This document shows, one piece after another, positions 3,493 to 33,456 of a stretch of DNA of 45,325 bases. Position numbers and translations under genes: made by a program. This stretch comes from Candidatus Zhuqueibacterota bacterium (GTDB lineage Bacteria > Zhuqueibacterota > Zhuqueibacteria > Oceanimicrobiales > Oceanimicrobiaceae). How positions within the stretch are numbered: position 1 is the first letter of the stretch; every line of letters starts with the position of its first letter. The DNA lies in assembly GCA_029262005.1 (NCBI GenBank), contig JAJDAG010000139.1, positions 1-45,325 of the forward strand. The letters run 5' to 3'. The notes under the pieces are model-generated. The model was given only the letters and a program-made list of their open reading frames with translations. It searched no databases and was not told the origin of the DNA.

Positions 3493-6234
3493 TTAAAAGG
3501 TGAAGCCTGCACTGACATAGAAACCCGTCAGGTCATCGCCGTGTATGATTCCGAAACTCAGGCTCTGTATTCGGTGCAGGAATGACAACCAAAAGCCACC
3601 GCCAAATCCGCTGTGCCAATCACCGGAACCGCCTGGGTCTTCGTCGAGGAAGACACGACCAACGTCGGCGGCGCCAAATAACCCAAACTCTCCCGGTACC
3701 AGCAATTTAACATGCCCCAACGCAAAACGTAATTCAGCATTTCCGTAGGCGGAGGCATCGCCTCCGAAGCGGTCATGGCGATAACCGCGCAGATTGCTGG
3801 ACCCGCCCAGATAGGCAGCCTCATGGAATGGGTACGTCCCCCAAACCTTTTCGCCACCGACTCGGAGCGCGAGTGTCGGCGACGTGGGTATGCTGGCAGT
3901 GAGATAGGTCGAAGCAGCACCGCTCACGCTGCCAAACGTGGATTCCACATCCCAGATCTCGGGGTAGATAATTCCGGCAGCCTTAAGCAAGTATCCTCTG
4001 GTGGCATACCCTGGATTGTCACGAGTATCGTAGGTAACTTCAGCCTGTGCCCCGAGCTGACCATACGAACCCGTGCCATAAAGTATTGGAATAAAGGGAC
4101 CGATAAACTTGTCGTCGTTATCGCTGAACGGGGTGTCAGAGTACTTGAGGATCGGCCCACCGGCAACAGTGAATGTCGGACGCAAAGCTTCCCTACCACC
4201 ACCTTTTTTGCCTCCCTGATTTCCACCTGCCTGGAATTCGACACTCGGAGAAAAAAGAAATTCTTTTCGATTTACATCATAAAAAGTCGAGGAGCCAGGA
4301 ATTTCGGTTTCGTTACCGAAACCGTTGAAACGAAGCACATTGATTCCGGAGAAATGTGTTTCGATTGTCAGGTCCATTCGCGGCCACAAGTGGTGAAATA
4401 CGCCCTTATAGCCGATAAAAGGTTCCGGTCCTTTGCTGGCCAAGCCGAGACTAACCCCATGTCGCGAAGAGAAAGGGTCTCTCCGATAGCCTAAAATTTG
4501 CCGCCCTGCAGTAATCCCAAAATATGCCCCGATATCCGGGCTTATTGCTATGCTCGGCAATACAAAGATAAAACCACCCCAGTCGATGGCATATCTCGTG
4601 TTCAACGACGCCAGGCCAGGTGGGCGTTTGTAGGATCGCCGATTGATTTTTGCCCCCCTGCCCTTCTCGAATATGTTGTCACCGCGCGAATCAAAGAATT
4701 GTGTCTTGCCTGCGCTCGCTTGTGATTTGTTGCTAAAGGAGTCATCTCCACCGCCACCATCTACGAGAACTTTAATCTGGGCTTTTTCTCCGGATACGAC
4801 TACATTATCATCACCTCCATGCAGGTAAAGCCGAACTTCCCTGGTTTCTTTGGCGTGAAAAATTCTATGAAAGTAAGGGCTACTATTTTCTTTACCCGAA
4901 CCTTTGACACGGGCAATACGCACTGCGAGGTCTCCGTTCGGCATGTGCTCTAACTCTACGGCTTCATCTTTGTCCGTTGCCTGTATTTCGGCTTGCCGGG
5001 TAATCAGCCAATAGTATTTATCAACGAATTGCTGCAGGTTGTCCCGGCGCGACTTAAGTGCCCGAGTCAGGAATTCACCAACCATCTCGTAGTAGGGTTG
5101 CGGCAGTTTGCGCACAGCATCTTGAATAATAGGATCCGGCAATTCTTTTACAAACACAGTTGCCACAGAATCCCAAACGCTTTTATCCAGTTCCGCCAAA
5201 AATTCACGATCCAGTTCCCAACCATTGATCGAGAGGCCAATAAGACTCGGGTACTCCGCCTCGAACTTGATCATCTTGGGGATGGCCTTGCGGCCAAGCG
5301 CCCAGGCAAAGCCGTCGAAATCGATAAAAGCCTGATCACGATCTTCAGGGATCGGCAGCCAAATATGGCAGTCGCCTTTCGGAAACTGCGCCCATCTCCA
5401 CTGGCCGGAGTGACGGTCTTTGTCATTGATAAGAAAATCCATGAGCCTTGCTTTCAGATAGGCCGGGGCATCGACGCGATTGCAGGGGCTCTTTTCCAGG
5501 TGTTCCCACAGCTTCTCCGTACCGCTGATTTTTGATGAGCCGGCAAATCCAGGGGCGCCGTCAGCTCCTTCTGAGGGATGTTCCTGCAGTGTTCCAACCA
5601 GGCCGGCGAATTCTTTGCGGTATTGGCCAAGCCTGGAATCATCCGGTATAACCAGCAAGGTATGTTTTGAGTGGAGAATTCCCGTGGCTTTCTGCAGTGG
5701 GTCTACCACTAACGCACCGACCGGGAACTGCGCACTGATCATGTCCTGCAGGACGTCCTCCACAAGGGTGTTTTTGAGATCGCTTACGATGCGCTTGGTC
5801 GGGTCCTTATCCACTGAACGAACTGTATACCGGCGGCCGTCCTCCCCGGTAAAATGCAGGGAGATGGATTGACCAAAGCCTCCGGTACGAAGCGGCGTCA
5901 AGCCACCGGCAAAATTATGAAGGTCAAGCACGGGAACTTCAATAGAAGTAGTCCAGAGATTGCGGTAATCCTCGCCATAAAACCATTTTTTGAAACCACC
6001 CGCGCGAAAGCGTTCGCCAAGGACTACGGTGTGGGTTTTAGCGCCCACAGCTGGAATAGACCGATGGATTTTGCGGCCGGCGGCAGTTGATGGCGCTTCT
6101 TGAGCATGTGCGCTTGCAGGAATAGTACAAGCCAGTACAAATGCGAGAAGGGCTGCGCCCAACCACCCTCGGCTTCGGTGCAAGTTTATCTTGCGTATTG
6201 TCTCTACAGCCATAACAATTAACACGGCCATCAC
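3493..6234 (-). CDS. Kinase-like domain / Omp85 (BamA-type) barrel outer-membrane protein, paralogue 1
   Basis: 913 aa. A signal peptide ends near 'ASAHAQ' (residue ~45). Residues ~60-400 resemble the middle domain of BamA-type outer-membrane proteins of Bacteroidetes. It has a beta-rich start ('GGFGQSISLHF', 'YTVRSVDKDPTK' at ~136-147), then 'DKDRHSGQW' at 271-279 and 'PEDRDQAFIDFDGF' at 296-309. The D-x-D-R-H-x-x-Q and D-F-D-G pair recalls catalytic and metal loops of HipA, PI3/4-kinase and Fam20 folds; kinase activity is inferred. Residues ~470-510 are Gly/Asp-rich repeats. The C-terminal half is an Omp85 barrel, with 'DTRDNPGYATRG' at ~736-747, the loop-6 motif 'NLRGYR' at ~814 and a terminal Phe as beta-signal. 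The start may be GTG 6234 or ATG 6231; both are weak. A close paralogue lies immediately upstream. Confidence 0.8.
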   Translation of the reverse strand: MMAVLIVMAVETIRKINLHRSRGWLGAALLAFVLACTIPASAHAQEAPSTAAGRKIHRSIPAVGAKTHTVVLGERFRAGGFKKWFYGEDYRNLWTTSIEVPVLDLHNFAGGLTPLRTGGFGQSISLHFTGEDGRRYTVRSVDKDPTKRIVSDLKNTLVEDVLQDMISAQFPVGALVVDPLQKATGILHSKHTLLVIPDDSRLGQYRKEFAGLVGTLQEHPSEGADGAPGFAGSSKISGTEKLWEHLEKSPCNRVDAPAYLKARLMDFLINDKDRHSGQWRWAQFPKGDCHIWLPIPEDRDQAFIDFDGFAWALGRKAIPKMIKFEAEYPSLIGLSINGWELDREFLAELDKSVWDSVATVFVKELPDPIIQDAVRKLPQPYYEMVGEFLTRALKSRRDNLQQFVDKYYWLITRQAEIQATDKDEAVELEHMPNGDLAVRIARVKGSGKENSSPYFHRIFHAKETREVRLYLHGGDDNVVVSGEKAQIKVLVDGGGGDDSFSNKSQASAGKTQFFDSRGDNIFEKGRGAKINRRSYKRPPGLASLNTRYAIDWGGFIFVLPSIAISPDIGAYFGITAGRQILGYRRDPFSSRHGVSLGLASKGPEPFIGYKGVFHHLWPRMDLTIETHFSGINVLRFNGFGNETEIPGSSTFYDVNRKEFLFSPSVEFQAGGNQGGKKGGGREALRPTFTVAGGPILKYSDTPFSDNDDKFIGPFIPILYGTGSYGQLGAQAEVTYDTRDNPGYATRGYLLKAAGIIYPEIWDVESTFGSVSGAASTYLTASIPTSPTLALRVGGEKVWGTYPFHEAAYLGGSSNLRGYRHDRFGGDASAYGNAELRFALGHVKLLVPGEFGLFGAADVGRVFLDEDPGGSGDWHSGFGGGFWLSFLHRIQSLSFGIIHGDDLTGFYVSAGFTF

Positions 6235-6366
6235 CTCATCGTTGATTATATGAATGCTTTCTTAGCCTTTCTTCGAAACAACCATATGCCGCAGGTTGCG
6301 GTCTAAAATGATCACACAGACTGAATCCCCGCAAGTTTGCAGTGACTTTTTCAAGCATAAGTTATT

Positions 6367-6634
6367 TAGCCTGAATAATTCACGACATCTTTGTCATTCC
6401 GTAACTATTCAGGCTTGAGAAGCTTCGGAGTGCAAAACTTTAGTTTTGCTTTAATTCAATGAAAATCGCAACGCTAAAGCGGTGCACTCCACTATCGGGA
6501 CTGAATAGTTACGTCACTCCGCAGGAATCTTGTTAATTTACAGTATCTTAACAGGCAAACAAGACTCCTCCTGAGTGACAACCGAGTTTATGATTTTTGA
6601 CCTTAAAATGTGGCTCCATGAATTAATCAGGTTA
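6367..6634. repeat. Small inverted-repeat (MITE-like) element, copy A, interrupted
   Basis: The ends are near-perfect inverted repeats: TAGCCTGAATAATTC at 6367-6381 and the complement of TAACCTGATTAATTC at 6620-6634. The body resembles, in opposite orientation, the element at 23314-23461. Shared stretches are 'TTGTCACTCAGGAGG', 'GTCTTGTT', 'CTGTAAATTA', 'AAGATTCCT' and the terminal repeats. This copy is longer because a second element (6401-6512) sits inside it. It contains no coding capacity. It lies between the two Omp85 paralogues. Confidence 0.7.
6401..6512. mobile_element. Nested 112-bp inverted-repeat element with 8-bp target duplication
   Basis: It has perfect 12-bp terminal inverted repeats, GTAACTATTCAG at 6401-6412 and CTGAATAGTTAC at 6501-6512. 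They are flanked by near-identical 8-mers GTCATTCC (6393-6400) and GTCACTCC (6513-6520), read as a target-site duplication. Internally, GGAGTGCA and its complement plus CTTTAG-type arms form a long imperfect hairpin. The uninterrupted relative at 23314-23461 shows only one GTCATTC-like site at the same place, as expected for an insertion. No ORF is present, so it is a non-autonomous element. Confidence 0.65.
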
Positions 6635-6679
6635 AGTGTTATTTTGATATTTTGAATACCATTTAAAATATCGAAGTCG

Positions 6680-9439
6680 TTAAAACATGAATCCTGCGCT
6701 AACATACACACCTGTCAGATCATCGCCGCTTACAATTCCGACACTAAGGGTCTGCAAGCGCTGGAGGAACGACAACCAAATGCCACCGCCAAATCCGCTG
6801 TGCCATTCATCGGCATCGCCTGGATCTTCGTCCAGGAAGACACGACCTACATCCGCAGCGCCAAAAAAACCATATTCTCCCGGCACCATCAAGTTAATTT
6901 TTCCTACTACAAAGCGTAATTCAGCATTTCCGTAGGCAGAGCCATCGCCGCCAAACCGGTCTTGCCGGAAACCACGCAGGTTCTTGGGTCCGCCAAGGTA
7001 GGCAGCATCGTGAAACGGAAAGGTTCCCCACACTTTCTCACCTCCAGCACGCAAGGCCAGGGTCGGTTTTGTCGGAATATTAGCTGTAAGATAAGTCGAG
7101 GCTGCGCCATTAACGCTACCAAAGGTGGTTTCCACATCCCAGGCCTCCGGATAGACGACACCGACAACCTTAAGCAAAACGCCCTTCGTGGTGTACCCCG
7201 GATTATCCCGAGTATCGAAACTGAGTTCAGCCTGTGCACCAAGTTGACCGAATGATTCCGTACCATAGAGTGCCGGAATCAATGGGCCTATAAATTGATC
7301 GTCATTGTCATCGAGAGGCGTGTCAGAATACTTCACGATTGGGCCGACAGCAGCGGTAAAGACAGGACGAAGCTGCTCTTTGCCTCCCCCCTCTTTGCCA
7401 CCGCGGTTTCCTCCCGCTTGAAACTCGACACTCGGGGCGAAAAGAAATTGTTTGCGATCCACATCGTAAAAAGAGGTTGAGCACGGTATTTCTGTCTCGT
7501 TTCCGAACCCATTGAATCGAATTACCTCAATTCCGGAAAACTCAATGTGGAAAATTCCGTCGACTTTGGGCAGCAAGTGACGAAACCTGCCCGTGTAGGC
7601 GATAAAAGGTTCGAGACCATTGCTGACCAATCCGAGACTGATGGCATGCCGCGACGAGAAAGGATCTTTACGATGGCCAAAATACTGGCGACCGCCGATG
7701 ATTCCCACGTACGCGCCTAAATCCGGGCTGGCTGTAAGCAGCGGAAATGAAAAGCCCAGTTTGCCCCAATCGAGAGCATATTTTGTATTCTCCGATTTCT
7801 TGCCTGCAGGGCGCTCGTAAGGATGCTGGTTGACTTTTGCTCCTTTCCCTTTCTCAAATCGGTTGTTGCCCTGGGAGTCAAAGAAACGCGTCTTTCCTGC
7901 CCCGGCCTGAGACTTATTTGTGAAGACATCATCTCCGCCACCACCATCAATCAAAACAGCAATCTTCCCCTTATCTCCCATTACGGTTACTGCATCATCC
8001 CCGCCTTGCAGATAAAATCGAATTTCTTTGGTTTCTTTCGGGTGAAAAATTCTTTGAAAGAACGGTTTATTCACCCCATCGGCCTCGCTTTTCTTGAGCG
8101 CGACACGGACTACCAGGTCACCGTTCTCCTTGTGTTCTAATTCGACCTGTTCGGCCTTGTTCGTAGTTTTGATTTCAGCCTGGCGCGTAATCAATTTGTA
8201 GTAATCGCTGACAAATTTGGGTAGCTTGTCTCGACGCGATTTCAGGTCATGCGTGAGAGACGCTCCAATCAGTTCGTAATAAGGTTTCGGCAACCTTCGA
8301 ACGGCACCCTCTATGACTGCATCAGTCAGTTCACTAACGAAAACGCTTGCCACTGAATCCCAGACACTTTTCCTGAGTTCAGCCAGGAGCTCGCGATCGA
8401 GTTCCCAACCATTTATTGAGAGACCGATTAGACTCGGGAACTTGTCTTGAAACTTTATTAACTTTGGGACTGCCCTTCGACCCAGAGCCATGGAAAAACC
8501 ATCAAGGTCGATGAAAGCTTGGTCGCGGTCCTCGGGGATCGGCACCCATTTGTAAAGATCGCCATCGGAAAAACGCGCCCACCTCCATTGCCCGGAATGC
8601 CGGTCCTTGTCGTTAATGAGAAAATCCATGAGCCTTGCTTTGAGATAGACGGGGGCGTCAACCCGATTACGAGGGCCTTTTTCCAGGTGCTCCCAGAGTT
8701 TCTCGGTACCGCTGACTTTCACTGAACCGGCGAAGCCAGGAGTCCCGTCAGCTCCTTCGGACGGATGCTCCTGAAGCGTCCCGATGAGACCGGCAAACTC
8801 TTCGCGATACTTGCCAAGCTTTGGATCGTCCGGAATAACGACCAGCGTGTGCTTCGAGTGCAGAATTCCGGTGGCTTCCATAAGTGGATCAACGACGAGG
8901 GCCCCTGTTGGCAGGAGCGCACTAATCAGATCCTGCAGAACATCCTCTACAACAGTATTCTTGAGTTCATCCCAGATGCGTTTGGTCGGGTCTTTGTCCA
9001 AAGAACGAACCGTGTGCCGGCGACCGTCATTCCCGGTAAAGTGCAGGGAGATGGACTGTCCAAATCCGCCAGTGCGAAGCGGAGTTAGGCCGCCTCCGAC
9101 GCTATCGAGATCCAATACCGAAACCTCGATTGGCGTGGTCCAAAGATGCCTGTAATCGCTTCCGTAAAACCACTTCTTGAACCCGCCTACCCGAAACCGC
9201 TCACCTGGGACGACGGTGTGGGTTTTGGCGCCTGCAGGTGGGATGGATCTGTGGATTTTGCGACCGGCAGCAGATGGTGTTTCCTGAGCGCGCAAATCTC
9301 CCTGAACAATAAAAATGAGCGCCACCGCGAGTAAAGCGGTACTCCGCCAACATTGACCTCGATACCTTGGCTTTTTTCCCGCGCTTTTTTTTCGAGTAAT
9401 CGAAAGCAGCATGTTGACCACTTTAATCGTCGATCTCAC
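6680..9439 (-). CDS. Kinase-like domain / Omp85 (BamA-type) barrel outer-membrane protein, paralogue 2
   Basis: About 919 aa from the GTG at 9439, chosen because AGGAGG lies 8 bases upstream. An ATG 132 bases further out has no such site and would add a non-signal-like leader. It is collinear with paralogue 1: signal peptide ending near 'DLRAQ', 'RSLDKDPTK', 'DKDRHSGQWRW' at about residue 277, 'PEDRDQAFIDLDGF', a Gly/Asp-rich repeat zone, and an Omp85 barrel with 'DTRDNPGYTTKG', 'NLRGFRQDRFGG' and a terminal Phe. Note IDLDG here against IDFDG in the other copy. A short segment with ACACAGACTGA is shared by the upstream regions of both genes (6313-6326 and 9549-9562), which suggests the duplication included regulatory DNA. 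The role of the kinase-like domain is not known to me. Tandem retention suggests diverged partners or substrates. Confidence 0.8.
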   Translation of the reverse strand: MRSTIKVVNMLLSITRKKSAGKKPRYRGQCWRSTALLAVALIFIVQGDLRAQETPSAAGRKIHRSIPPAGAKTHTVVPGERFRVGGFKKWFYGSDYRHLWTTPIEVSVLDLDSVGGGLTPLRTGGFGQSISLHFTGNDGRRHTVRSLDKDPTKRIWDELKNTVVEDVLQDLISALLPTGALVVDPLMEATGILHSKHTLVVIPDDPKLGKYREEFAGLIGTLQEHPSEGADGTPGFAGSVKVSGTEKLWEHLEKGPRNRVDAPVYLKARLMDFLINDKDRHSGQWRWARFSDGDLYKWVPIPEDRDQAFIDLDGFSMALGRRAVPKLIKFQDKFPSLIGLSINGWELDRELLAELRKSVWDSVASVFVSELTDAVIEGAVRRLPKPYYELIGASLTHDLKSRRDKLPKFVSDYYKLITRQAEIKTTNKAEQVELEHKENGDLVVRVALKKSEADGVNKPFFQRIFHPKETKEIRFYLQGGDDAVTVMGDKGKIAVLIDGGGGDDVFTNKSQAGAGKTRFFDSQGNNRFEKGKGAKVNQHPYERPAGKKSENTKYALDWGKLGFSFPLLTASPDLGAYVGIIGGRQYFGHRKDPFSSRHAISLGLVSNGLEPFIAYTGRFRHLLPKVDGIFHIEFSGIEVIRFNGFGNETEIPCSTSFYDVDRKQFLFAPSVEFQAGGNRGGKEGGGKEQLRPVFTAAVGPIVKYSDTPLDDNDDQFIGPLIPALYGTESFGQLGAQAELSFDTRDNPGYTTKGVLLKVVGVVYPEAWDVETTFGSVNGAASTYLTANIPTKPTLALRAGGEKVWGTFPFHDAAYLGGPKNLRGFRQDRFGGDGSAYGNAELRFVVGKINLMVPGEYGFFGAADVGRVFLDEDPGDADEWHSGFGGGIWLSFLQRLQTLSVGIVSGDDLTGVYVSAGFMF

Positions 9440-9621
9440 TGGCAATTCCTCCTGTTTTTTCCTCTGTGATATTTCTTGCATCAAGGAGTAATTATTTCTT
9501 GAATTTAGTATGGAATCAGCGCTACGCAACTGGCCATGACATACGATAACCACACAGACTGAGTCCAACACCGCTATCCCAAGCTGTGTGGCACCGGGTG
9601 TTACATTAATTTAGTTTAATC

Positions 9622-22789: not shown

Positions 22790-23291
22790 GTTGTCGTTTG
22801 CGACTGCACGGGTGCCTCTGCGGGTACTACTCTGACCCAAATCACGATTGTAGTTGGTCTCCGCCGCAAATCCAAAAATATATGGCAAGAGTATCCGGCC
22901 CGTTGTTGGATAGAATTGATATTCATATTGAAGTGCCCGCAGCTAAATTTAAGGATTTGGCCGGCGAAAGAAGTGGCGAGACTTCTGAAGTTATACGCAA
23001 ACGTGTGAAAAAGGCCAGGGACATTCAAATTACCAGTTTCAAAAGCTATAAAAACCTGTTTGGAAACGCAAGAATGGAATCGAAAGAAATTCGCCAATAC
23101 TGTGAGATTGATGAGCGAAGTCAGGAACTTCTGAAAATGGCAATTACCAAGCCGGGGCTTTCTGCCAGAGCTTATGATAGAATTTTGAAAGTCTCCGAAG
23201 CATTGCGGATTTAGAAAGTTCTGCAGAGATCAAGCCGGAATTCGTCAGTGTGGCGATTCAGTATCGGAGTGTGGATAGGTCGGTTGTGTGA
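22790..23291 (+). pseudogene. C-terminal remnant of a ComM/YifB Mg-chelatase-like ATPase
   Basis: The frame beginning near 22798 gives 'CLCGYYSDPNHDCSWSPPQIQKY' and 'RVSGPLLDRIDIHIEVPA', then 'ARMESKEIRQYCEIDERSQELL' and 'GLSARAYDRILKV'. This is the highly conserved C-terminal third of ComM/YifB. Near 23200 the frame shifts, and the true ending 'IADLESSAEIKPEFVSVAIQYRSVDR' continues in another frame to TGA at 23289-23291. The N-terminal ~370 residues, with Walker A and the Lon-like domain, are missing. The expected 'FMLVAAMNPCP' stretch is damaged. It is a decayed fragment, not a working gene. Confidence 0.8.
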
Positions 23292-23525: not shown

Positions 23526-24047
23526 TTATTTCATCAAAATCATTTTACGCACTTGCAAAAAAATTCCGGCTTGCAGGCGATAAAGATATAGACCAGAGGG
23601 CAAATCATCCGCCACAACATTGACCCGATAACTCCCTGCCTGCTGGTTCTGTTCAATGATTGTTCTTACCTTTTGCCCAACAACATTAAAAACCTCCAAC
23701 CGAACGTCAGCCTCTCTTGAAAGATCATATTTTATGGTTGTTGACGGATTAAAAGGGTTTGGATAAGCACTGCTTAAATAAAATGACTCAGGTTTGCGTG
23801 AATCAGAAAATGTCTCCGCAACTGCTGTCGGCAATGGTTTGCCTTTGGTAAATGCGATAAAATCAAGATCGACGGCAACAGTGGAAGGGGCCGGACCGTC
23901 AACCTGAGAAATAACCACCACAACCTCATCAAGTTTACCATCAAAAACACCATTACCACTTGTATTCAAGTCTGTAAACTCGCTTACCGGGACACTCACA
24001 AGTTCCCATTGATGATAAAGCAAGCCTTTTTCTGTAAAATAGGACCG
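23526..24047 (-). pseudogene. C-terminal fragment of a secreted protein with a sorting-type (FlgD/T9SS-like) domain
   Basis: About 170 codons. The N-terminal part ('YHQWELVSVPVSEFTDLNTSG', 'FDGKLDEVVVVISQVDG') looks like the end of a beta-sandwich carbohydrate-binding or jelly-roll domain. The last ~85 residues are the immunoglobulin-like tail 'YPNPFNPSTTIKYDLSRE', 'VRLEVFNVVGQKVRTI', 'AGSYRVNV', 'LPSGLYLYRLQAG'. That tail is used as a C-terminal secretion signal in FCB bacteria. The frame stops at a TAG exactly within the fold-back repeat (24020-24075) and no signal peptide precedes it. Most of the protein is therefore missing. A TTG at 24023 is not a credible start. Confidence 0.75.
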
Positions 24048-24075
24048 CTAACCTATTTTACAGAAAAAGGCTTGC
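24020..24075. repeat. Perfect 24-bp inverted repeat with an 8-nt spacer
   Basis: Bases 24020-24043 and 24052-24075 are exact reverse complements, separated by ACCGCTAA. The left arm, read on the minus strand, is natural coding sequence of the truncated gene ('YFTEKGL'). The right arm is therefore an inverted copy of that coding DNA. This fits a fold-back or template-switch event that ended the gene. It also leaves a strong hairpin ~22 bp upstream of the -35 box of the sigma/CHAT operon. Confidence 0.85.
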
Positions 24076-24097: not shown

Positions 24098-24126
24098 TTG
24101 ACAATTATGTTGCAATTCTATATTAT
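24098..24126 (+). promoter_or_regulatory. Sigma70-type promoter of the sigma/CHAT operon
   Basis: TTGACA at 24098-24103, a 17-bp spacer, and TATTAT at 24121-24126: nearly consensus. Transcription should begin near 24133, giving a leader of ~135 nt before the first gene. No start codon with a ribosome site occurs earlier in the leader. Confidence 0.65.
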
Positions 24127-24269
24127 TTTATGTTAATTTTATAGCCATAGGTGATACGGGAAAGTCGCCAACCATTGTTTTTCACCTTTGCTCGGCTCAC
24201 TCCCCAAAACACCTATTTATCTCCATTCCGGAAACATCATATACTCATAGTACAACAAGGAAGAACCTT

Positions 24270-24902
24270 TTGCCAAGCGCACTGAGTGAGATCCATTTTT
24301 CGAACCTTATAGATATCTGTTCCGAACCTGAGAACCAAGAGTATGAGAGAGCATGGAAAGAATTTGAGCGTCGTTATGGCAACAAAATGCGCGAGATGGT
24401 TCTGATGAGCGGCAGAGTCAAGGGCAAAGAGCAAGCCAATGGCGTTCTATCAGAGGTTCGCTATATTCTTGTAAAGAATAATTTTTCCACATTCAAGATT
24501 TTTAAGAAACGCCATGATGAGAACAGCTTTCGAGCGTATTTGGGAACGATTTGCCGGATGGCTGCTTTTGGAATCCGCGCGCCAAATACAGAGCCGCTTC
24601 CTGAAATCGCAATTGAAGAAGATTTGCGCCCCAATGAGCGCCATTCGCAAAGACGGATAGCCCGTCTGACCAGAGAAAGTCTTCTCCGGCAACATAAAAA
24701 GGATCTTAAGGTTATTGAGCGGGACGTGTTGGTACATTTGCTGAAAGAGGTTTATGACCTCAGTGCACGAGAGATAGCTTGCCTCCCGCTGCTCAACATT
24801 AACGAAGCACATGTTCCGAGAATTATCTATCGGGCCAGGCAAGCGATTCGAAAAAATAAACCACTTGAGAGATTTCCAATGGATGGAGACACTATACGGT
24901 GA
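24270..24902 (+). CDS. ECF-like RNA polymerase sigma factor
   Basis: 210 aa. A region-2-like segment (about 25-100, 'YERAWKEFERRYGNKMREMV' onward) is followed by a charged linker. A region-4-like HTH follows (about 148-195, 'VIERDVLVHLLKEVYDLSAREIACLPLLNI', 'VPRIIYRARQAIRK'). The sequence is divergent, so the call rests on layout, length and the neighbouring zinc-finger protein. The start is TTG at 24270, supported by AAGGAAG 7 bases upstream; no ATG gives a complete region 2. It is the first gene of a seven-gene plus-strand run ending at 32303. It likely directs expression of its own operon or a small regulon, which is inference. Confidence 0.7.
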   Translation: MPSALSEIHFSNLIDICSEPENQEYERAWKEFERRYGNKMREMVLMSGRVKGKEQANGVLSEVRYILVKNNFSTFKIFKKRHDENSFRAYLGTICRMAAFGIRAPNTEPLPEIAIEEDLRPNERHSQRRIARLTRESLLRQHKKDLKVIERDVLVHLLKEVYDLSAREIACLPLLNINEAHVPRIIYRARQAIRKNKPLERFPMDGDTIR

Positions 24903-24949
24903 GACTTGAATTGAAAACATCATAGTCGCTCACATTGATGGAGGAAAAA

Positions 24950-25357
24950 GTGAGAGTTCATCATTCGGTTGGTGTGCTAATAGCATTAGAGCTTGAGGGG
25001 TTCAAGGGAGTTCAATGCCAGGAGTTGTTGATGCATGTAAATGCTTGTGCCGTATGCCAAAAAGAACTTGCCAAAGTCCGTTCCGCTCAAGAGCGCTACA
25101 AGCCGCTATTACATGACACCGAACAGCTTGCCGCAATTTTAAGTAATAATAACTGTTTTAATATCGGCAACGACCATGACCGATCGATTTTCTTTTTATC
25201 TGCCTTCCTGCGAGAAAGTCTCTCTCAAGAAACATCAATTATTTTGTTCAAACATCTGAGTGATTGCTCCGATTGTATGGTCCCATTCGTGACCGGCTGG
25301 ACACATTTTCTGGTAGAAACGAATGGGAACCCAAATATGGAAGATAGCGAGGAATAG
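24950..25357 (+). CDS. Protein with two zinc-finger anti-sigma-like motifs
   Basis: About 135 aa from the GTG at 24950, chosen because GGAGG lies 5 bases upstream. A TTG or ATG slightly further out would swallow that site. Two copies of the H-x3-C-x2-C signature of zinc-binding anti-sigma factors are visible: His29/Cys33/Cys36 ('HVNACAVC') and His102/Cys106/Cys109 ('HLSDCSDC'). No TM helix is present, unlike the usual membrane anti-sigma factors, so it may be a soluble module. Its place directly after the sigma gene supports an anti-sigma role. The duplicated finger is unusual. It stops 4 bp before the next gene. Confidence 0.65.
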   Translation: MRVHHSVGVLIALELEGFKGVQCQELLMHVNACAVCQKELAKVRSAQERYKPLLHDTEQLAAILSNNNCFNIGNDHDRSIFFLSAFLRESLSQETSIILFKHLSDCSDCMVPFVTGWTHFLVETNGNPNMEDSEE

Positions 25358-25361
25358 CAAA

Positions 25362-26528
25362 ATGATCCACAAGTCAGACATGAATTTCACAGATAAGATA
25401 TTGAACTATGTGCTGAACAGCGAGAATCCGTCAATAGATGCAGATGAGATTATCACCTATACTTATTCGCTGCAATGGTGTCAAGAAATGGCGACCATGC
25501 TCATAGGACTCAAAAACCTGGCTGGAAATCGTCAACCAACGACCGACCAGGGTGAGCCCGGCGGGTTGGATTTAACCCAAAGCGTCATGAAATACTACCA
25601 GGAAGCCCTTACGGCCAACGAAGCTGCCACACTCCTGCAACAGCTTCAGACTTTTGCCGGAACGCGTGAGATGCTCTCTTCAATCCTAAGTCAACCTCTT
25701 GTGCCATCTCCTCCCAAGATAGAGAATCAAGCCGCAACGCTTCTCGGCAAATTCTCGTTGACTGAAAAAGTATTAGAAGTCATGCCGCCTGCTCCAGCAA
25801 AACCGTCATGGTTTAAGAAACTTTTGGAATTGATTAAAGCTGAAATCTCATCACTGTTTATGTCCAAATCAGGTTCCATATTGGCGTTCCCAAGACTTAA
25901 ACCTGTGCTCATTTTACTCTTCGCCGGAATCTTCTGTGGCGGCGGAATCCTCGGGCCTGGCTACTACAAAACCGACTATCAATTAAACAGAGTAGAAAAT
26001 CTCTTACACAAGCATCACAAAATCTTTATTTCCGGTAAACCGAGAATGTCAGGAGGCTATGAAGCGACAAGACTTGGAAAGAAAATGGCGCCTCCGAACT
26101 CGCCCCCTTTTCTAACAGAAGCATCATCTCGAATTTCCAAAGCCCGCGAGCATGGCGCAGATCAATACCGCAGCGAGTTATTGCTGGCCCAGATCGAGCT
26201 GATACAAAACCGGCCATCCGTCGCGGACTCAATCCTGAAATCGAGTATCGGTGCAGGCAGGGAAACGGCTGATGTTCTGAACGATCTTGGTGTAGCCGCT
26301 TTTGCGTCAAAGAATATCGACGTAGCTGAGCAAAAATTTCAGGAAGCTTTGCAGCTTAAGCCGCAATTGCGCGAAGCGAAATACAATCTGGCTTTAACTC
26401 AGGAAAAACTCGGAAAAAGCGAGAAGGCCTTACAAACTATTAAGGAATATCTAAAAAATGAAACCGACCCACATTGGCGGGACGCCGCCGAAAGTCTTTT
26501 GAACAGGGTCCAAAATAAGACACGGTAA
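25362..26528 (+). CDS. Single-TM protein with C-terminal TPR repeats
   Basis: 388 aa from ATG 25362, preceded by GAGG; a longer frame would overlap the previous gene. The ~175-residue N-terminal part is probably cytoplasmic, with no recognised domain. A TM helix follows at ~180-202 ('LILLFAGIFCGGGILGPGYY'). The periplasmic part ends with TPR helices (about 280-380, 'VLNDLGVAAFASKNIDVAEQKFQEALQLKP', 'AKYNLALTQEKLGKSEKALQTIKEYL'). The topology resembles a transmembrane adaptor or anti-sigma partner that senses the periplasm. Its partners are likely the adjacent anti-sigma-like protein and the TPR-CHAT lipoprotein. The function is inferred from context only. Confidence 0.7.
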   Translation: MIHKSDMNFTDKILNYVLNSENPSIDADEIITYTYSLQWCQEMATMLIGLKNLAGNRQPTTDQGEPGGLDLTQSVMKYYQEALTANEAATLLQQLQTFAGTREMLSSILSQPLVPSPPKIENQAATLLGKFSLTEKVLEVMPPAPAKPSWFKKLLELIKAEISSLFMSKSGSILAFPRLKPVLILLFAGIFCGGGILGPGYYKTDYQLNRVENLLHKHHKIFISGKPRMSGGYEATRLGKKMAPPNSPPFLTEASSRISKAREHGADQYRSELLLAQIELIQNRPSVADSILKSSIGAGRETADVLNDLGVAAFASKNIDVAEQKFQEALQLKPQLREAKYNLALTQEKLGKSEKALQTIKEYLKNETDPHWRDAAESLLNRVQNKTR

Positions 26529-26610
26529 CAAAAAACGTAATAAGAGGAAGATGCTCTGGGGAGGTCATCTGATTTTGTAGAAAATTAATTCTATTTAGGA
26601 GGGAGAATTT

Positions 26611-28350
26611 ATGTTCAGCATAATACGTTGGATAATCAACCTCTTCAGGGCCGAGCCTGATGAGATTACCATCAGACGCCTCCCGCGCCTGCATGTGCTC
26701 CGAGCCAACCTGGTGGGACTTGCACTCGGATTGCTCGTCGTTTACCTTGCTTTGATCTGGGAAGCTGTGCCTTTGCCCTGGATTAGTGTACTCCTGCTTT
26801 TTCTCTATTTTAGTATTGGTACTTATTTGGGCGGCATTTCCGTTGTCCTCAGCCTGTTCCTTTTCATTGTTTCCCTACGTCTCGGTAGTGTCGATGGTCC
26901 GCCAACAACCACACTGGCCCTTCTCAAACTTTCCCGCTGGCATGTTCTGGGCTACCTCTTCGGTGCGCTTTTCGCTCTGACCTACAACGATTTTCTCTTT
27001 GTTGTTGTCAACCTCTTTAAGGAGAAGTATCTCAAAACTGTTTTCCATTATAAAAAGCAGGTCTGCAACGTCATCAAGGCACCGGACATAACTGAAGTCA
27101 CCAGGCTGGTTGGCGCCGATGAGATGCCGCTCTATGATTACCAGCCAAGACATATTTCTTCGCACCCCTATACCATCGTGTTTGTGGCAAATCCACGGGT
27201 TCTCAAAAAATTTGATTATAACATCCCTGATACCACAAGTATGGAATTCCAGAACGCGTTGGACATCCGTCGTGCAGATGCCGTTAACTATGACCCAGAT
27301 CCGATGATGCAGGACTTGCCATTGTTTCTCAGAACCGTCGATCGGGCGTTGCACAGCCTGGAACGCGATGATGTTATCGGTCGTCCGGAAATTTGGAGTC
27401 AGGTCAGAATTGTGACTATTTTTGACGCCGATATCGCAGGGGGCCGCGGCATGCTCGAAGAATTTCAACGTGGCCTGTTTCTTGATGATGGGAGTGAAGT
27501 AGACAATATGATCAGCCCAATCGACAGCGAAATTCAGTCGGCTGTGCAAGCGGCCCTGTCTGAAGATTCCGGCTGTATTTCCTACGATAAGGTCGACGTG
27601 ATTTATGTTCTCAGCGCGCACGTGACTCACGACCGTTGTTCGGCGCATTTTTCAGACTACTATGAAAACCGGCTGCTTTCGGATATCCCGGCCTATGACC
27701 CAACGAAAGGTCAGGTGTATTACATGGACGTCGATCCCGCTGTTCCACACGCTATCCAGAAAGACGATCAAATAAACGTGCACAGACCCACGCATACATT
27801 ACCGTCGGCCCTGGATTGTTGTTCAGCCTACTTCTTATCAATTCACGAGCATCGCAGTGAAATCCCGGGCACGATTGCACTTAATGCGCTGTCAAATCGC
27901 AGCAAAACCTACGTTCACGAATTTGCTCACGCCATGTCCTCGCTTTTTACCGGCATGATCGTGGACGAATACTTTGACAGGTTACGGCTTGGCGAAGCAG
28001 TGGAGTCCGAAGAAGATGAATCCAAATGCTTTGATGAAGGCGTGGAGAAAGACTGCCTTGATGCCCCGGATATCGCACCTTACTATCTCAACAAGATCGT
28101 GAGAAACTGGCACTTGCCGCCGCCCGCGGTCATTCCCGTGCATAGAATCTTTTGCGAATATAACGGCGAGATTTTTTGTTCCGACCGGGATCATCCATCG
28201 GCCGAGGAGAATTGGTTGGGCTATTTTCCGAACAGAGCCGCCAAGGAACGAGGCTGCATTATGGATCGCACGATTGGCGGGTATCAATTTGACCCGCTTA
28301 TCAGTACGTTCATGTACGACCGGCTCATGGCAAAGATAAATCGACCATAA
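26611..28350 (+). CDS. Four-TM membrane protein with a zinc-metalloprotease (HEFAH) domain
   Basis: 579 aa. TM helices occupy the first ~150 residues ('LVGLALGLLVVYLALIW', 'ISVLLLFLYFSIGTYLGGI', 'VVLSLFLFIVSL', 'LGYLFGALFALTYN'). A ~420-residue soluble domain follows. Its centre carries 'YVHEFAHAMSSLF', an HExxH zinc site with His436, Glu437 and His440, and then 'IVDEYFD' 12-16 residues on. The His-Glu-x-x-His plus nearby Asp-Glu-Tyr layout recalls peptidase M64 (IgA-protease-like), but the spacing is longer and I do not claim membership. Six or more Cys in the C-terminal third suggest disulfides or a periplasmic site. AGGAGGG lies 7 bases before the ATG. It is probably the proteolytic arm of the operon. 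Confidence 0.7.
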   Translation: MFSIIRWIINLFRAEPDEITIRRLPRLHVLRANLVGLALGLLVVYLALIWEAVPLPWISVLLLFLYFSIGTYLGGISVVLSLFLFIVSLRLGSVDGPPTTTLALLKLSRWHVLGYLFGALFALTYNDFLFVVVNLFKEKYLKTVFHYKKQVCNVIKAPDITEVTRLVGADEMPLYDYQPRHISSHPYTIVFVANPRVLKKFDYNIPDTTSMEFQNALDIRRADAVNYDPDPMMQDLPLFLRTVDRALHSLERDDVIGRPEIWSQVRIVTIFDADIAGGRGMLEEFQRGLFLDDGSEVDNMISPIDSEIQSAVQAALSEDSGCISYDKVDVIYVLSAHVTHDRCSAHFSDYYENRLLSDIPAYDPTKGQVYYMDVDPAVPHAIQKDDQINVHRPTHTLPSALDCCSAYFLSIHEHRSEIPGTIALNALSNRSKTYVHEFAHAMSSLFTGMIVDEYFDRLRLGEAVESEEDESKCFDEGVEKDCLDAPDIAPYYLNKIVRNWHLPPPAVIPVHRIFCEYNGEIFCSDRDHPSAEENWLGYFPNRAAKERGCIMDRTIGGYQFDPLISTFMYDRLMAKINRP

Positions 28351-28362
28351 GGAGATGAAAAT

Positions 28363-28884
28363 ATGTTACCTTTGAATCGCTCGTTTCGACGTATGCTTTC
28401 AAAATATGTGCCGGAATTGCCGGCAGAGAAAGTCACCCGATTTGAAAATCTGGCCGCGTTGCGCCATCAGGTGAAGCAGGAGTTCAATTTGAGCAGAGCC
28501 AATCGCCCTGAGCGCCGCGCCACCTTCAACCAGGCAACCAGGGAATTGAACAGCGTTATGGCGCCTTATCAAAAACAATATACCTCGGTGCAGAAGGTGT
28601 ATATTGCCAGACGCAAAGCGGCGTTGAAACAGGGAGGCGTACAACAATTTCCATCCGGGTGGAAAGAGCTAGTTGAATTCACTAAAGTTCATGTCGATTT
28701 CTGGAGGATTTCAGTGCAGGTCCTGCCAAAATTGGCCTGGAATCGAACCGGCAATTGCGCCAGGATTATCATCATAACCTGTGTTGGTGGCGGCACCGGT
28801 TTTTTCGGCTTCTGTATGTGGCTGTGCCAAACGCACAGTGAACTCTTTTACAGATGGTTTTTTGTGTGTGGCTGTGGCCAATGA
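28363..28884 (+). CDS. Basic protein with one C-terminal TM helix (unknown family)
   Basis: 173 aa. The first ~130 residues are basic, Arg/Gln-rich and helical ('FENLAALRHQVKQEFNLSR', 'RATFNQATRELNSVMAPYQKQYT'). A hydrophobic segment near 133-155 ('IIIITCVGGGTGFFGFCMWL') and a short Cys-containing tail follow. There is no signal peptide, so the N-terminus is probably cytoplasmic. AAGGAG lies 8 bases before the ATG and 12 bp after the protease gene stop. I recognise no family. It may be the substrate or regulator of the upstream protease, by position only. Confidence 0.6.
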   Translation: MLPLNRSFRRMLSKYVPELPAEKVTRFENLAALRHQVKQEFNLSRANRPERRATFNQATRELNSVMAPYQKQYTSVQKVYIARRKAALKQGGVQQFPSGWKELVEFTKVHVDFWRISVQVLPKLAWNRTGNCARIIIITCVGGGTGFFGFCMWLCQTHSELFYRWFFVCGCGQ

Positions 28885-28932
28885 AAAGTGAGATCGCCTG
28901 CAAATAAAATATCAAATGACTTTACAACGATT

Positions 28933-31932
28933 ATGATGCAAACGCCTCATCTACAAAAACTAAAGTGGCTGGCGCTCCTTTTTGTGCTAGGTTGCACGAA
29001 CAACGATTCGGCCCATAAATTAAGTGAGATTCAACGGCAAATTTACGCTCAGCCTGAGATAACGCAGGAAGAAATTGTTGCCAAAATTGAGCATTTTTAT
29101 CGATCGCTGACGGTCACTGATTCTATTCGTCAGAGTGTGGAACAGGCGGTTGCGCGCCAACTCGCGACTGCCCCCTCCCGCCTTGGGCCGTTTTCAGAAA
29201 AAATCCGGGACGAGCAGAATCCATATCGCTTGGAAAACATTTTACAAGAAATCATTCGGGCGGGGCTAATGGCCCGGGCTCTGTTGAATGTTGACTTGTC
29301 CGACAGTCTCTTTGTTTTGGCTGTAAATGTAGCACACGAGGTTGACTCAACTACCGCGACAGCTTACTGGGTTGGCTTTGTCTCGCAAAGCCAGAAGTTC
29401 ACAACGGACGATGTGCATAACTGGCTGATGGTATCTGTGGCGCGAGATTCATGCTATAAATATCATGGTGATGATACAAATTGGCCGCTTGCTGAACAAT
29501 ACGCTGCCCTTGCTCTGCAGCGTCTGGAAAAAACACCTGACACCAGAATTAAATTGGATGTCATGTTTAGACTTCAGTATATCCTGCGTGAATTCTACAG
29601 CTATTTCCCACTTACAATCGCAATATCCAAATATTATTATCAAATGGCCCAAGAAAACGGCTATCACTTGCGGGCTGTTGCTATGGCGTTCCAGGAAGCG
29701 GATGCATCAAGAGAAGACGGCAAAATTCAGGAAGCTTTAGACTTACTCAAATCCATTATTAAAGAGACGAACAAGTACAATCGCATTTCCGATATGGAGT
29801 GGTTCAAAAGAATGGCGCTGCTTCGCTTGGCAGAGTGCTACCGGGCTCTTGGCGATTATCAAAATGCTAAATCTGCCTGTGCAGAGCTCGAACAGCTAGC
29901 CCCGGACCAGAGAAAACTGACTTTACTACATATTGTAAAAGGAAGGATTCATCAAAACTTAGGTGAATACGAACAGGCTCATGCAGAATACGATGCCGGT
30001 CTAAGCGTGGCCGATGCGCAGGGTGACATGGTCAACATGAGCGCTCTGTACACGAACCTCGGTACAATGTATGAATTCCTCACAGAGTATGACAGAGCGC
30101 AGGATTATTTTATTAAGTCCGAAGCTTTACTCAAAAGCCCTTTATTGAGCCGGAATGACAGAGTACGGCTTATACTAAATTCCGCTGAGATCGCTGCCTT
30201 GCAAGGCAAGGAAGAACAATTTGACCAGGCGATTCGAGAGGCAAACGAGCTCATGACATCAGCCAATTTGCCGTTTAGGCTGGCGCAATATTATAGGACC
30301 ATTGGAGCGTTAAATTTCCAACTTGGACGCAATGAGGAAGCATTGGAATACCTCAAAAAAGCGATAGGCATTTTTCGATCTGAGGGGTTGGTGCCGAAGT
30401 TTCTCGGAACAACAGTGGACATCGTCAAATGTCTTATGGCACTATCCGAATATTCAAAAGCAATGCAGGCATTGGAAGAATTAAGAAATACGGCAAACAA
30501 AGTTAGCGAGCCGGAGCGGGTCATCGATGCCCTTGCCTTGGAAGCGGAGATTGCCTTTCGCCTCGGCGACCGGGCGAAAGCAGTGGTTTTATCAAACCAG
30601 GTCTGTCAGCATGTTCAAAAAGTCATGGATAATATCCAAGACGAAGCGAAACGTATTTTTTATCATCAAAAGAATTACAAATATCTGAAGAACAGTGTTT
30701 TTTATGGGATTCAAAACAACACCCTTAATTTATCCCTGCAAAAACTAAATCAGATCAAATCAATAACGTTACCTTCCACAACATTAAAAAGGCCAGAATA
30801 TCTATCCTCGGCCAATGGCTCTGACTCGCTTCCTCCTGTCCAATCATTCCTGGATTCAACGAATTGTATCATTGATTATATTGTCACGCACGATTCGTTA
30901 TTTGCAGTGGTTTTTTCCGGTCAAAAGTCGAAGTCGGTTATTTTGAGGAAACATCTTCCGGAGCAGAAACTTGCATCCACGACCCGAGCCTATAAGATGC
31001 TGATAGAAAAAACGACAACGATATTCGAAAACTTCAACGTGAGCAACGCACAGGAGCATTATAGAAAAACGACTCAACAGGCGCATGAATTGTATTCCAT
31101 GTTGTTTGGCTGGCCTGCACTGGACTCGTTGGTGCAAGAAAGTGAAATGATGTATATTGTGCCGGATGAATATCTCTATGACTTGCCATTTGCAACACTG
31201 GTCGTCGATACCACAGAGTCCATAACTTATCTGGCCAATGAAACTGCCACAGTCATCCTCCCTGGCCATTCACTGGCGCCTAAACCGAAGATGCAAAGTA
31301 ATCCGCTTGACGGAAACGGCCTAATCAGTATGGATATTACCTTTGACAAAGCCGCCGAGTTGTTAGCTTTACTTAAGCAATTGTCCCCGGACTTAGAGGA
31401 ACTTTCGGTCAATTCACTTCAAGTCGCCAAAGCAGAGGCGATTGAACAGCTTCGCGTGGCGCGTGACTATTATTTTTTTCTTGGCCACGGTTTTGCCCAT
31501 GCGCAGAACCCGGATCTCTCCTACATTGAATTGTCTGTGACCTCGTCAGAGCAAAAGAAAAACATCATACAAATTTCGATGCCTGAATTCAGAGAGCATA
31601 AATTAGTATGGGACAATAAACCAACTATTCTGTTGCTAGGCTGTAAAACCGCGACGGGAAAATCGTACATGGGTTCAGGCACCCTTGGGTTCCAACGGGG
31701 ATTATTGTCTATGGGGGCTGGAACCGTAGTCGGGACGCTTTGGGACATCGATTCGAATCATGCGATTCCCGACATGGCAGAAGTGCTAAAAAATTGGCAG
31801 AAAAACGGTAATTTCACCAGAGCTTTGCAGCAGAGCCAAATAAGGAAGATCGAGCAAATGCGCAAAGATCCTGTTTTCAAGCAGCCCCACCCTTATTTCT
31901 GGGGTGGATTTATGGTAACCTCGGTTATCTAA
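28933..31932 (+). CDS. TPR-CHAT domain lipoprotein (caspase-like)
   Basis: About 999 aa. The start chosen is ATG 28933, because it gives a normal lipoprotein signal ending in 'FVLGC'. A GTG at 28888, 3 bases after the previous stop, would give a long leader. Residues ~150-600 are TPR helices ('IGALNFQLGRNEEALEYLKKA', 'YTNLGTMYEFLTEYDRAQDYF', 'RLAECYRALGDYQNAKSAC'). The C-terminal ~330 residues are a CHAT domain with the His-Cys dyad: His852 in 'YFFLGHGFAH' and Cys904 in 'TILLLGCKTATG'. 'GAGTVVGTLWDIDS' and 'HPYFWGGFMV' complete the fold. CHAT domains are caspase-clan proteases. Lipidation suggests the protease faces the periplasm or outer membrane, which is unusual and inferred. Confidence 0.88.
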   Translation: MMQTPHLQKLKWLALLFVLGCTNNDSAHKLSEIQRQIYAQPEITQEEIVAKIEHFYRSLTVTDSIRQSVEQAVARQLATAPSRLGPFSEKIRDEQNPYRLENILQEIIRAGLMARALLNVDLSDSLFVLAVNVAHEVDSTTATAYWVGFVSQSQKFTTDDVHNWLMVSVARDSCYKYHGDDTNWPLAEQYAALALQRLEKTPDTRIKLDVMFRLQYILREFYSYFPLTIAISKYYYQMAQENGYHLRAVAMAFQEADASREDGKIQEALDLLKSIIKETNKYNRISDMEWFKRMALLRLAECYRALGDYQNAKSACAELEQLAPDQRKLTLLHIVKGRIHQNLGEYEQAHAEYDAGLSVADAQGDMVNMSALYTNLGTMYEFLTEYDRAQDYFIKSEALLKSPLLSRNDRVRLILNSAEIAALQGKEEQFDQAIREANELMTSANLPFRLAQYYRTIGALNFQLGRNEEALEYLKKAIGIFRSEGLVPKFLGTTVDIVKCLMALSEYSKAMQALEELRNTANKVSEPERVIDALALEAEIAFRLGDRAKAVVLSNQVCQHVQKVMDNIQDEAKRIFYHQKNYKYLKNSVFYGIQNNTLNLSLQKLNQIKSITLPSTTLKRPEYLSSANGSDSLPPVQSFLDSTNCIIDYIVTHDSLFAVVFSGQKSKSVILRKHLPEQKLASTTRAYKMLIEKTTTIFENFNVSNAQEHYRKTTQQAHELYSMLFGWPALDSLVQESEMMYIVPDEYLYDLPFATLVVDTTESITYLANETATVILPGHSLAPKPKMQSNPLDGNGLISMDITFDKAAELLALLKQLSPDLEELSVNSLQVAKAEAIEQLRVARDYYFFLGHGFAHAQNPDLSYIELSVTSSEQKKNIIQISMPEFREHKLVWDNKPTILLLGCKTATGKSYMGSGTLGFQRGLLSMGAGTVVGTLWDIDSNHAIPDMAEVLKNWQKNGNFTRALQQSQIRKIEQMRKDPVFKQPHPYFWGGFMVTSVI

Positions 31933-31955
31933 CAATTTTCTATTGGGAGGTTCAA

Positions 31956-32303
31956 ATGAATTCGATACAATATGTTTCACCTGGAGATGGAGACGCTGGT
32001 TCTACAGGTGGTGGCGGCCCTGAAGATGATCCGCGTTTCCCAAGGCAATCTTTTCGTGCGTCCGGCCTCATGGCTGTTGCGTTCGGTCTGGCAATGGGAT
32101 TGACTTTCATGGTTTTTTTCTTGCTTTTCAAATGGTTCGGCACCCCAGCACCCGGATTTAACTTCCTGTTTGAAACGTATTTTCCTAACATCTGGAAAGC
32201 ATTCCTAATAGGATTTGGAGGCGGAACCGTCCTCTCAGGAATCTACAACATGTTAATGATTAGACGTCTGAATCTTTTCGGCTTAGAGAGCCTTACCGGC
32301 TAG
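31956..32303 (+). CDS. Small two-TM membrane protein (unknown)
   Basis: 115 aa. A Gly/Asp-rich N-terminal ~35 residues precedes two TM helices ('LMAVAFGLAMGLTFMVFFLLF', 'IWKAFLIGFGGGTVLSGIY') and a short basic tail. GGGAGG lies 5 bases before the ATG, and it starts 23 bp after the CHAT gene, so it is the last gene of the operon. No family is recognised. A weak imperfect hairpin follows near 32282-32310, without a good T-run. Confidence 0.65.
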   Translation: MNSIQYVSPGDGDAGSTGGGGPEDDPRFPRQSFRASGLMAVAFGLAMGLTFMVFFLLFKWFGTPAPGFNFLFETYFPNIWKAFLIGFGGGTVLSGIYNMLMIRRLNLFGLESLTG

Positions 32304-32664: not shown

Positions 32665-33456
32665 TCACGAAGCATTACCACTTAAGGTGGACGGCTTCAC
32701 TAAATCTTCGGCAATAATTCCGAGCAACTGCTCACGGGCATTTTCCAGAAAGAAATGTCCGCCCTGGAACATGTGCATCTTGAAGGCACTGGAAGTGTGC
32801 GCACGCCATGCGCGGATTTCATCGGTTCGCACGAGTGCATCATGCCAGCCACCAAAGGCCGTTATCGGACAATCAAGCCTGGTTTGATGTTCACGGCCGT
32901 AATCTTCGGTCATTTTCACACTGGCTTTTAATTCAGGCATCATTCGAGACAGCAGATCTTTTTCGTGAAGTAACGGTTGCGACTCAGCATCGCAGTGACC
33001 CTGCAATTCATCAATGAAAAGGTCATCTGTAATTTTGTTTAATGGCGTTTGCGGGTTAAGTAAACCCGGGGCACGCCATCCGGAAACGAAGAAATGTTGC
33101 GGCGTTTTGTTTGCCTGTTTTCCGAGGAGAGCGGCTACTTCATATCCGAGAACGGCCCCAAAGCCGTGACCAAAAAAAGCGAAAGGTAAAGTCAACAAAG
33201 GGACCGATACTTCAGCAATCGTGTCAGCCAGCCGCTGCAGGTCATTTATCGGTTTCTCAATACCACGATTCTGTTGGCCGGGTAGTTGAACAATACACAC
33301 TTGAATCTGCGACGGAAGATTTTTTTCCCAACTCTGAAAGGGCACAGTGGTGGCGCCGGCAAACTGGAAGCAAAACAGACGAACTTTCGGCTGCGCGTCA
33401 CACGCTTTGCTCATCCAAATCCACTTGTTAAGCTCAATTGAAATGTTCTTGCCCAT
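32665..33456 (-). CDS. Type II thioesterase-like alpha/beta hydrolase lacking the nucleophile serine
   Basis: 263 aa. The overall pattern is that of type II thioesterases (GrsT/RifR-like): 'VRLFCFQFAGATTVPFQSW', 'VCIVQLPGQQNRGIEKPINDL', 'ITAFGGWHDALV' and 'MFQGGHFFLENA'. The catalytic Asp (206) and His (234) are in place. The nucleophile elbow, normally G-H-S-x-G, reads G-H-G-F-G (residues 96-100), so Ser98 is Gly by one A-to-G change in an AGC codon. Classical hydrolysis should be lost. It could be a binding protein, an error or an early pseudogene. No polyketide or peptide synthetase gene is nearby. The start ATG 33456 has only a weak ribosome site. Confidence 0.75.
   Translation of the reverse strand: MGKNISIELNKWIWMSKACDAQPKVRLFCFQFAGATTVPFQSWEKNLPSQIQVCIVQLPGQQNRGIEKPINDLQRLADTIAEVSVPLLTLPFAFFGHGFGAVLGYEVAALLGKQANKTPQHFFVSGWRAPGLLNPQTPLNKITDDLFIDELQGHCDAESQPLLHEKDLLSRMMPELKASVKMTEDYGREHQTRLDCPITAFGGWHDALVRTDEIRAWRAHTSSAFKMHMFQGGHFFLENAREQLLGIIAEDLVKPSTLSGNAS

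Follow-up and report, generated by a model that had tools for sequence, protein, structure and literature searches.

In a 45,325-nt contig (the whole stretch analysed, called the window here) from a 5.77 Mb Candidatus Zhuqueibacterota genome, seven open reading frames form a close-packed run on the plus strand (Table 1). Their coordinates and strand agree with the original prediction, and the genes are tightly spaced. The gaps between the seven successive genes are 32, -35, 82, 12, 3 and 23 nt, and the operon ends before a thioesterase gene. The flanking ORFs that were scanned are ordinary genes with no Cas proteins among them, and the interval from 18 to 38 kb in the window contains no CRISPR-like direct repeats. 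Elsewhere in the window are the C-terminal part of a ComM/Mg-chelatase-like gene (22798-23214, plus strand), which begins inside its domain (PF01078 158-206, then PF13335) and is probably truncated or frameshifted; a 6S RNA (RF00013, 33769-33949, minus strand; 47.4 bits against a gathering score of 46.4); and two adjoining large proteins with C-terminal Omp85 domains (3493-6234 and 6680-9571, minus strand).

Table 1. Features of the seven-gene run and its borders, with positions in the window
Feature	Position	Strand	Characteristics and basis
Candidate promoter, sigma-70-type TTGACA-17-TATTAT	24098..24126	+	consensus scan; ~144 nt 5' of first ORF
Sigma factor, ECF-type, divergent (ORF1)	24270..24902	+	family profile, NCBIfam sigma matches, alignment
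Stand-alone two-finger anti-sigma-like protein (ORF2)	24935..25357	+	zf-HC2 above cut-off; HxxxCxxC at residues 34 and 107
Putative membrane anti-sigma/TPR protein (ORF3)	25323..26528	+	degenerate cytoplasmic anti-sigma domain, one TM, extracytoplasmic TPRs (predicted)
Membrane metalloprotease	26611..28350	+	HEFAH 436-440, D452/E453/Y454, C549-x-M551
Small helical protein (ORF5)	28363..28884	+	C-terminal TM in window; CHAT-coupled
TPR-CHAT protease	28888..31932	+	PF12770 98 bits; lipobox V-L-G-C, Cys at ORF residue 36; His867/Cys919
Two-TM protein (ORF7)	31956..32303	+	alignment; like N-terminal membrane module of metalloprotease
Thioesterase gene	32665-33456	opposite strand	operon ends before it

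The original prediction gave the operon a promoter of its own. The site in Table 1 is the best of 16 promoter-like sites in the region (11/12), although 12 such sites are expected there by chance. Among 18 related sigma genes, five also have a sigma-70-type site on their 5' side, where shuffled sequences would give 0.25; four patterns were tried and the five positive loci include close relatives, and we take the shared site as moderate support for a housekeeping promoter. No ECF-type autoregulatory motif exceeds expectation 5' of the same 18 genes. Because the promoter pattern is of sigma-70 type and ECF-type patterns are not enriched, the operon is probably transcribed by the housekeeping sigma and ready before any signal arrives, not induced by its own sigma factor. 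The proposed control by a sigma/anti-sigma pair is thus supported, but not an operon driven by the sigma factor it encodes. Terminator-like sites in the region are near chance level (16 on both strands, 11.5 +/- 4 expected). The 144-nt leader contains no riboswitch, and matches to miRNAs in it were dismissed as merely reflecting the 48-nt inverted repeat, a nearly perfect one, at 24024-24071 directly upstream of the promoter.

The first gene was expected to encode an ECF-like sigma factor, and the profile of its family matches the solved ECF sigmas SigH/SigE/RpoE (best E = 2.6e-7). Members are about 210-250 aa long, and the window's protein taken alone is weakly recognisable by Pfam. By profile match and length it fits an ECF factor with regions 2 and 4 only, related to SigE/SigH. 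The second gene encodes the anticipated two-finger anti-sigma-like protein, with equivalents in L053, L067 (twice), L080 and L085.

The third protein had been described as a TM-TPR protein. Its TPRs, recognised by Pfam here as in the CHAT protein, and its one TM helix were recovered, but the comparison adds that the TPR protein itself is the likely anti-sigma factor. In most relatives it has one or two N-terminal zf-HC2-like fingers followed by one TM and then the TPRs, and by this domain order we regard it as a class I membrane anti-sigma factor with an outer TPR sensor. An adjacent anti-sigma carrying an anti-sigma domain, as in the class I (zf-HC2) partners of ECF factors, is present both as ORF2 and as the relatives' TPR proteins. 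The TPR proteins of the window, L049, L053, L060 and L067 no longer have the finger ligands. In the window, L053 and L067 the degenerate finger region can still be aligned, and a small finger-motif protein is encoded directly before the TPR gene; no separate finger gene is seen in L049 and L060. The model of the ORF3 N-terminus is of low confidence (pLDDT 70, pTM 0.33), and its underlying alignment includes intact-finger homologues that may pull the fold. In a Foldseek search of 350,542 chains, six of its 11 matches are anti-sigma domains (RsiW, MucA, RslA), all with non-significant E-values. A conserved juxtamembrane R-L-S-G-G-Y in the TPR protein was considered as a CHAT-specific cut site and rejected; its R-x-x-G form is kept in loci that have no CHAT gene.

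The fourth gene encodes a membrane protein with a HEFAH motif for which Pfam and NCBIfam searches gave nothing convincing and a profile search of PDB sequences gave nothing. Across the family alignment HExxH, D452 and Y454 are invariant, E453 is nearly so, and C549-x-M551 is shared. The AF2 model (pLDDT 82.5, pTM 0.84) has only sub-threshold Foldseek matches, the first and second of which are the IgA protease of T. ramosa, an M64-type enzyme. Comparison by hhalign with 30 M64 proteins of the same phylum gave a probability of 84%, over the active-site stretch only, against 0.1-0.2% for control families. The protein resembles M64 (PF09471, the IgA-peptidase family) in its HEFxH ... DEY signature and in the later C-x-M. 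It differs in that none of 16 members matches PF09471, in its membrane module, in its predicted cytoplasmic side, and in an active site (HEFAH-x(11)-DEY, compared with HExGHxxxGLxDEY in M64) that carries a 5-residue insertion between HExxH and DEY. We read it as a remote M64-like zincin that is not a member of M64; an earlier aspzincin-like assignment was dropped, since the DEY and C-x-M evidence favours an M64-like one. Catalytic domains of the same family occur in Acidobacteriota (L068 9506-10915, HEFGH...VDLY) and, as a partial homologue, in a Bacteroidota MAG (L069 3232-3771); they lack the TM module and have different N-terminal domains fused to them.

In short relatives of the metalloprotease a pair of TM helices is bracketed by Lys/Arg on its outer ends, and long relatives have more helices with the same flanks. 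The number of helices in the metalloprotease is probably even. Because the positive residues flank the helices identically in short and long relatives, the catalytic domain is predicted to face the cytoplasm, where it would adjoin the anti-sigma domain; for both proteases of the operon the topology is judged only from hydropathy and positive charges. The zinc protease is therefore a membrane protein, as proposed, but its catalytic domain would not face the envelope. ORF7, correctly foreseen as a two-TM protein, repeats the TM pattern seen in the membrane module of the metalloprotease. The two profiles also cross-match, but with both proteins hydrophobic this resemblance is no more than suggestive. 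One ORF7 relative has a weak match to DUF5676.

The sixth gene encodes the second, unrelated protease, so that the pairing of two different proteases stands, as CHAT and M64-like zincin. None of the 18 aligned proteins departs from His867 and Cys919, and among solved structures the TPR-CHAT/Csx29 proteases of type III-E CRISPR come closest (E = 7e-8), followed by separase. Translation more probably begins at codon 16 or 17 (MMQTPHL...). The TPR-CHAT domains and the lipobox identified at the outset are present in the window, but the lipoprotein is not a family-wide form: a lipobox-like Cys is found in the window, L038, L060 and L067, and most relatives have an N-terminal TM anchor. With either anchor the TPR-CHAT part is predicted to lie outside the cytoplasmic membrane. 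ORF5 is weakly conserved, and the single C-terminal TM by which it had been described is present in the window but not conserved among relatives. In L044 and L057 ORF5 forms the N-terminus of CHAT, and these two fusions therefore argue for a physical link between ORF5 and CHAT. Two 32-nt direct copies, 50 nt apart and 78% identical, lie across the junction between the ORF5 and CHAT genes (28810-28891). The window's own genome also carries a similar though distinct trio of sigma, TM protein and secreted CHAT, without a metalloprotease (L033 5005-9813).

A single-protein query of genome contigs gave no match and an alignment-based search was needed; curated profiles replaced iterative ones that confounded ORF5 with CHAT, and ORF7 with the metalloprotease. 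Of 82 genomes in the phylum, 19 carry a relative of the metalloprotease. They represent 15 of 59 genera and seven families, all within one class, and a twentieth genome matches its TM part only. Most relatives that have a name are MAGs of candidate division KSB1 / Calditrichota. Fourteen loci are flanked by sequence at either end (the window, L034, L038, L041, L043, L044, L046, L049, L050, L051, L052, L057, L060 and L067). All 14 contain the metalloprotease, CHAT, ORF7 and ORF5, the last either as a gene of its own or as part of a fusion; sigma and the TPR protein are also present in 13, and 12 have the gene order of the window. The 14 cases are not all independent, since L050 and L051 are closely related and a single genome holds both L057 and L060. 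In L060 the TPR gene has shifted to between ORF5 and CHAT, and in L044 both proteases, ORF5 and ORF7 are present with no adjoining sigma or TPR gene. In L067 the sigma, finger and TPR genes are tandemly duplicated before a single metalloprotease-CHAT set (4185-9246). Of the 19 genomes with the metalloprotease, 17 have a strong ORF7 match and in the other two the contig ends; the 63 genomes that lack the metalloprotease have no strong match (Fisher p = 1e-15, which overstates independence, the genomes being related). The recurrence of the gene set in other families of the phylum is more than chance, and co-occurrence in conserved order, which the original prediction had proposed as a check, is observed.

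The sigma family is distributed more widely than the metalloprotease. Loci with sigma, a zinc-finger/TPR protein and CHAT but without metalloprotease, ORF5 and ORF7 are found in L070, L071 and L076, and with a separate finger gene in L080 and L085. Pairs of sigma and zinc-finger/TPR protein with no CHAT gene nearby are found in L073, L074, L077, L078 and L079. The core thus appears to be a sigma factor with a membrane TPR anti-sigma, often joined by CHAT, to which loci of the window type add a three-gene membrane-protease set. The single system proposed at the outset would have been called into question had relatives carried the genes apart: mostly they are together, but sigma-TPR-CHAT loci do occur without the added set, and L044 lacks sigma and TPR. 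In the window's family the sigma and zinc-finger/TPR pairs without CHAT lie behind a large gene of 622-847 aa, and the two such genes scanned, in L079 (same genome as the window) and L073, have DUF5916/CBM9 domains.

The genes very probably form one co-functional sigma/anti-sigma/CHAT module, because the set and its order are conserved, metalloprotease and ORF7 co-occur, ORF5 and CHAT are fused in places, and simpler sigma-zinc-finger/TPR-CHAT loci are nested within the arrangement. Starting from the gene content, conservation, catalytic residues and domain identities established in the sequences, a plausible scenario is that this is one transmembrane signalling module controlling an ECF sigma by proteolysis, a reading to which we assign a probability of roughly 0.5 and in which the membrane sides, the binding of sigma by ORF2/ORF3, the cleavage and its order, and the nature of the signal are inferred from topology and precedents. 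The sigma factor would be held at the membrane by the TPR anti-sigma, a role that in the window would be split between ORF2 and ORF3. An envelope signal would engage the TPRs of the anti-sigma and of CHAT, activating CHAT, which would cut the anti-sigma on its outer side; the cytoplasm-facing metalloprotease would then remove the inner part and free the ECF sigma, with ORF5 and ORF7 holding the two proteases together across the membrane. Release of a sigma factor is suggested because the sigma is of ECF type, the TPR protein carries an anti-sigma domain, and the nearest CHAT relatives cut an anti-sigma. Two-step cleavage is suggested because the catalytic domains are predicted to be on opposite sides of the membrane and both HExxH and the CHAT dyad are invariant. 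That both proteases act on the anti-sigma, CHAT first and then the metalloprotease, we put a little short of an even chance. The strongest point against the model is L044, where adjacent sigma and TPR genes are missing and the proteases may have a different target; the occurrence of sigma-TPR pairs with no CHAT nearby also counts against it.

These same loci would fit CHAT and the metalloprotease being effectors, with the sigma system sensing damage via the TPR anti-sigma and the proteases attacking envelope or cytoplasmic proteins to cause growth arrest or killing. CHAT proteases do act as effectors in other systems, and L044 has both proteases, ORF5 and ORF7 with no sigma or TPR gene adjoining. 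We nevertheless consider this unlikely. Behind a housekeeping-type rather than an ECF-type promoter, the proteases would be made before the signal, and two opposite-facing proteases fit stepwise cleavage of an anti-sigma better. Stepwise release is preferred to killing since the proteases seem to be in place before the signal, and neither a match to a toxin or defence family nor a mobile context was found.

Quite unlikely is control of the anti-sigma by binding or redox, in which the zinc fingers would release sigma and the role of the proteases would be limited to turnover or maturation of the complex. In RsrA/ChrR-type factors, HxxxCxxC anti-sigma fingers serve to sense redox state, and the window encodes a soluble two-finger protein, but the loss of finger ligands from five of the TPR proteins, with no separate finger gene seen in two of these loci (L049 and L060), speaks against it. 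A dedicated anti-phage or abortive-infection system is very unlikely: the patchy distribution (19/82 genomes) and the use of protease-controlled sigmas in immunity by Craspase and Calp would favour it, but PADLOC gave only two weak, chance-level matches (ORF2 and the TPR part of CHAT), no relatives were found in viral contigs or plasmid collections, no CRISPR array lies nearby, and the flanking genes are ordinary. The infection sensing or cell killing originally envisaged, and any link of the gene set to phage defence, are not supported.

The scheme preferred here, stepwise proteolytic release of an ECF sigma, resembles several known systems in part. The DegS-RseP-RseA-sigma-E cascade, to which PMC10028731 also refers, has a membrane anti-sigma with an outer sensory side and two successive proteases. 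The window set likewise has a putative membrane anti-sigma and two proteases, one predicted on each side from hydropathy and charge only, but CHAT and an M64-like zincin replace the PDZ serine protease and the site-2 protease and are encoded together with the sigma factor. In the Calp system (CalpL-CalpT-CalpS) a protease releases a sigma from its anti-sigma, as is proposed for the window set. CalpL, however, belongs to the Lon-type SAVED proteins and is activated by CRISPR-made cyclic tetra-adenylate, and the proteases of the window set are CHAT and M64-like zincin.

Closer in content is Craspase/CASP (Csx29 - Csx30 - CASP-sigma, type III-E), where one locus likewise combines an ECF sigma and its inhibitor with a TPR-CHAT protease; cleavage of Csx30 by Csx29 relieves inhibition of the ECF sigma, and Csx29 itself is a soluble protein that is bound to Cas7-11 and responds to target RNA by becoming active (PMC10028731). 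The window has the TPR-CHAT protein with a His/Cys dyad but neither Cas7-11 (gRAMP) among the flanking ORFs scanned nor a CRISPR array nearby. Unlike soluble Csx29, CHAT in the window and its relatives would be anchored outside the membrane by an N-terminal TM or lipobox; the window anti-sigma is a zinc-finger/TM/TPR protein, and a second protease is present. The ECF54 sigmas also have CHAT and other peptidases in their genetic context, with proteolytic control proposed and an anti-sigma reportedly absent (PMC8999054); the window set shares that context but, going by this published description of ECF54, is set apart by its one or two anti-sigmas. Neighbourhoods of caspase, ECF and TPR genes have been described for other conflict systems (PMC8195603). 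As originally stated, no described system matching the gene set was found in the literature searched, whose partial coverage makes this weak evidence of novelty.

CHAT proteases are common in bacteria, and the wiring from protease to sigma has been worked out mainly for Craspase. A protease-controlled ECF sigma would be of an already known kind, and what appears new is this combination of genes: a trio of sigma, anti-sigma and TPR-CHAT that faces the envelope and has no CRISPR, and that is inherited together with ORF5, ORF7 and an undescribed second protease of the membrane. Tentatively, and at odds clearly below even, the set may be a self-contained relay of outer CHAT and inner M64-like zincin, coupled by ORF5 and ORF7, that dismantles the TPR anti-sigma to free the ECF sigma; this would be a new form of regulated proteolysis without a site-2 protease, and possibly a CRISPR-free origin of Craspase-like sigma control. 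The metalloprotease represents an unannotated family whose catalytic domain extends to other phyla (L068, L069). The gene set provides a testable case for the role of non-CRISPR CHAT proteases and is a candidate alternative to the DegS-RseP cascade.
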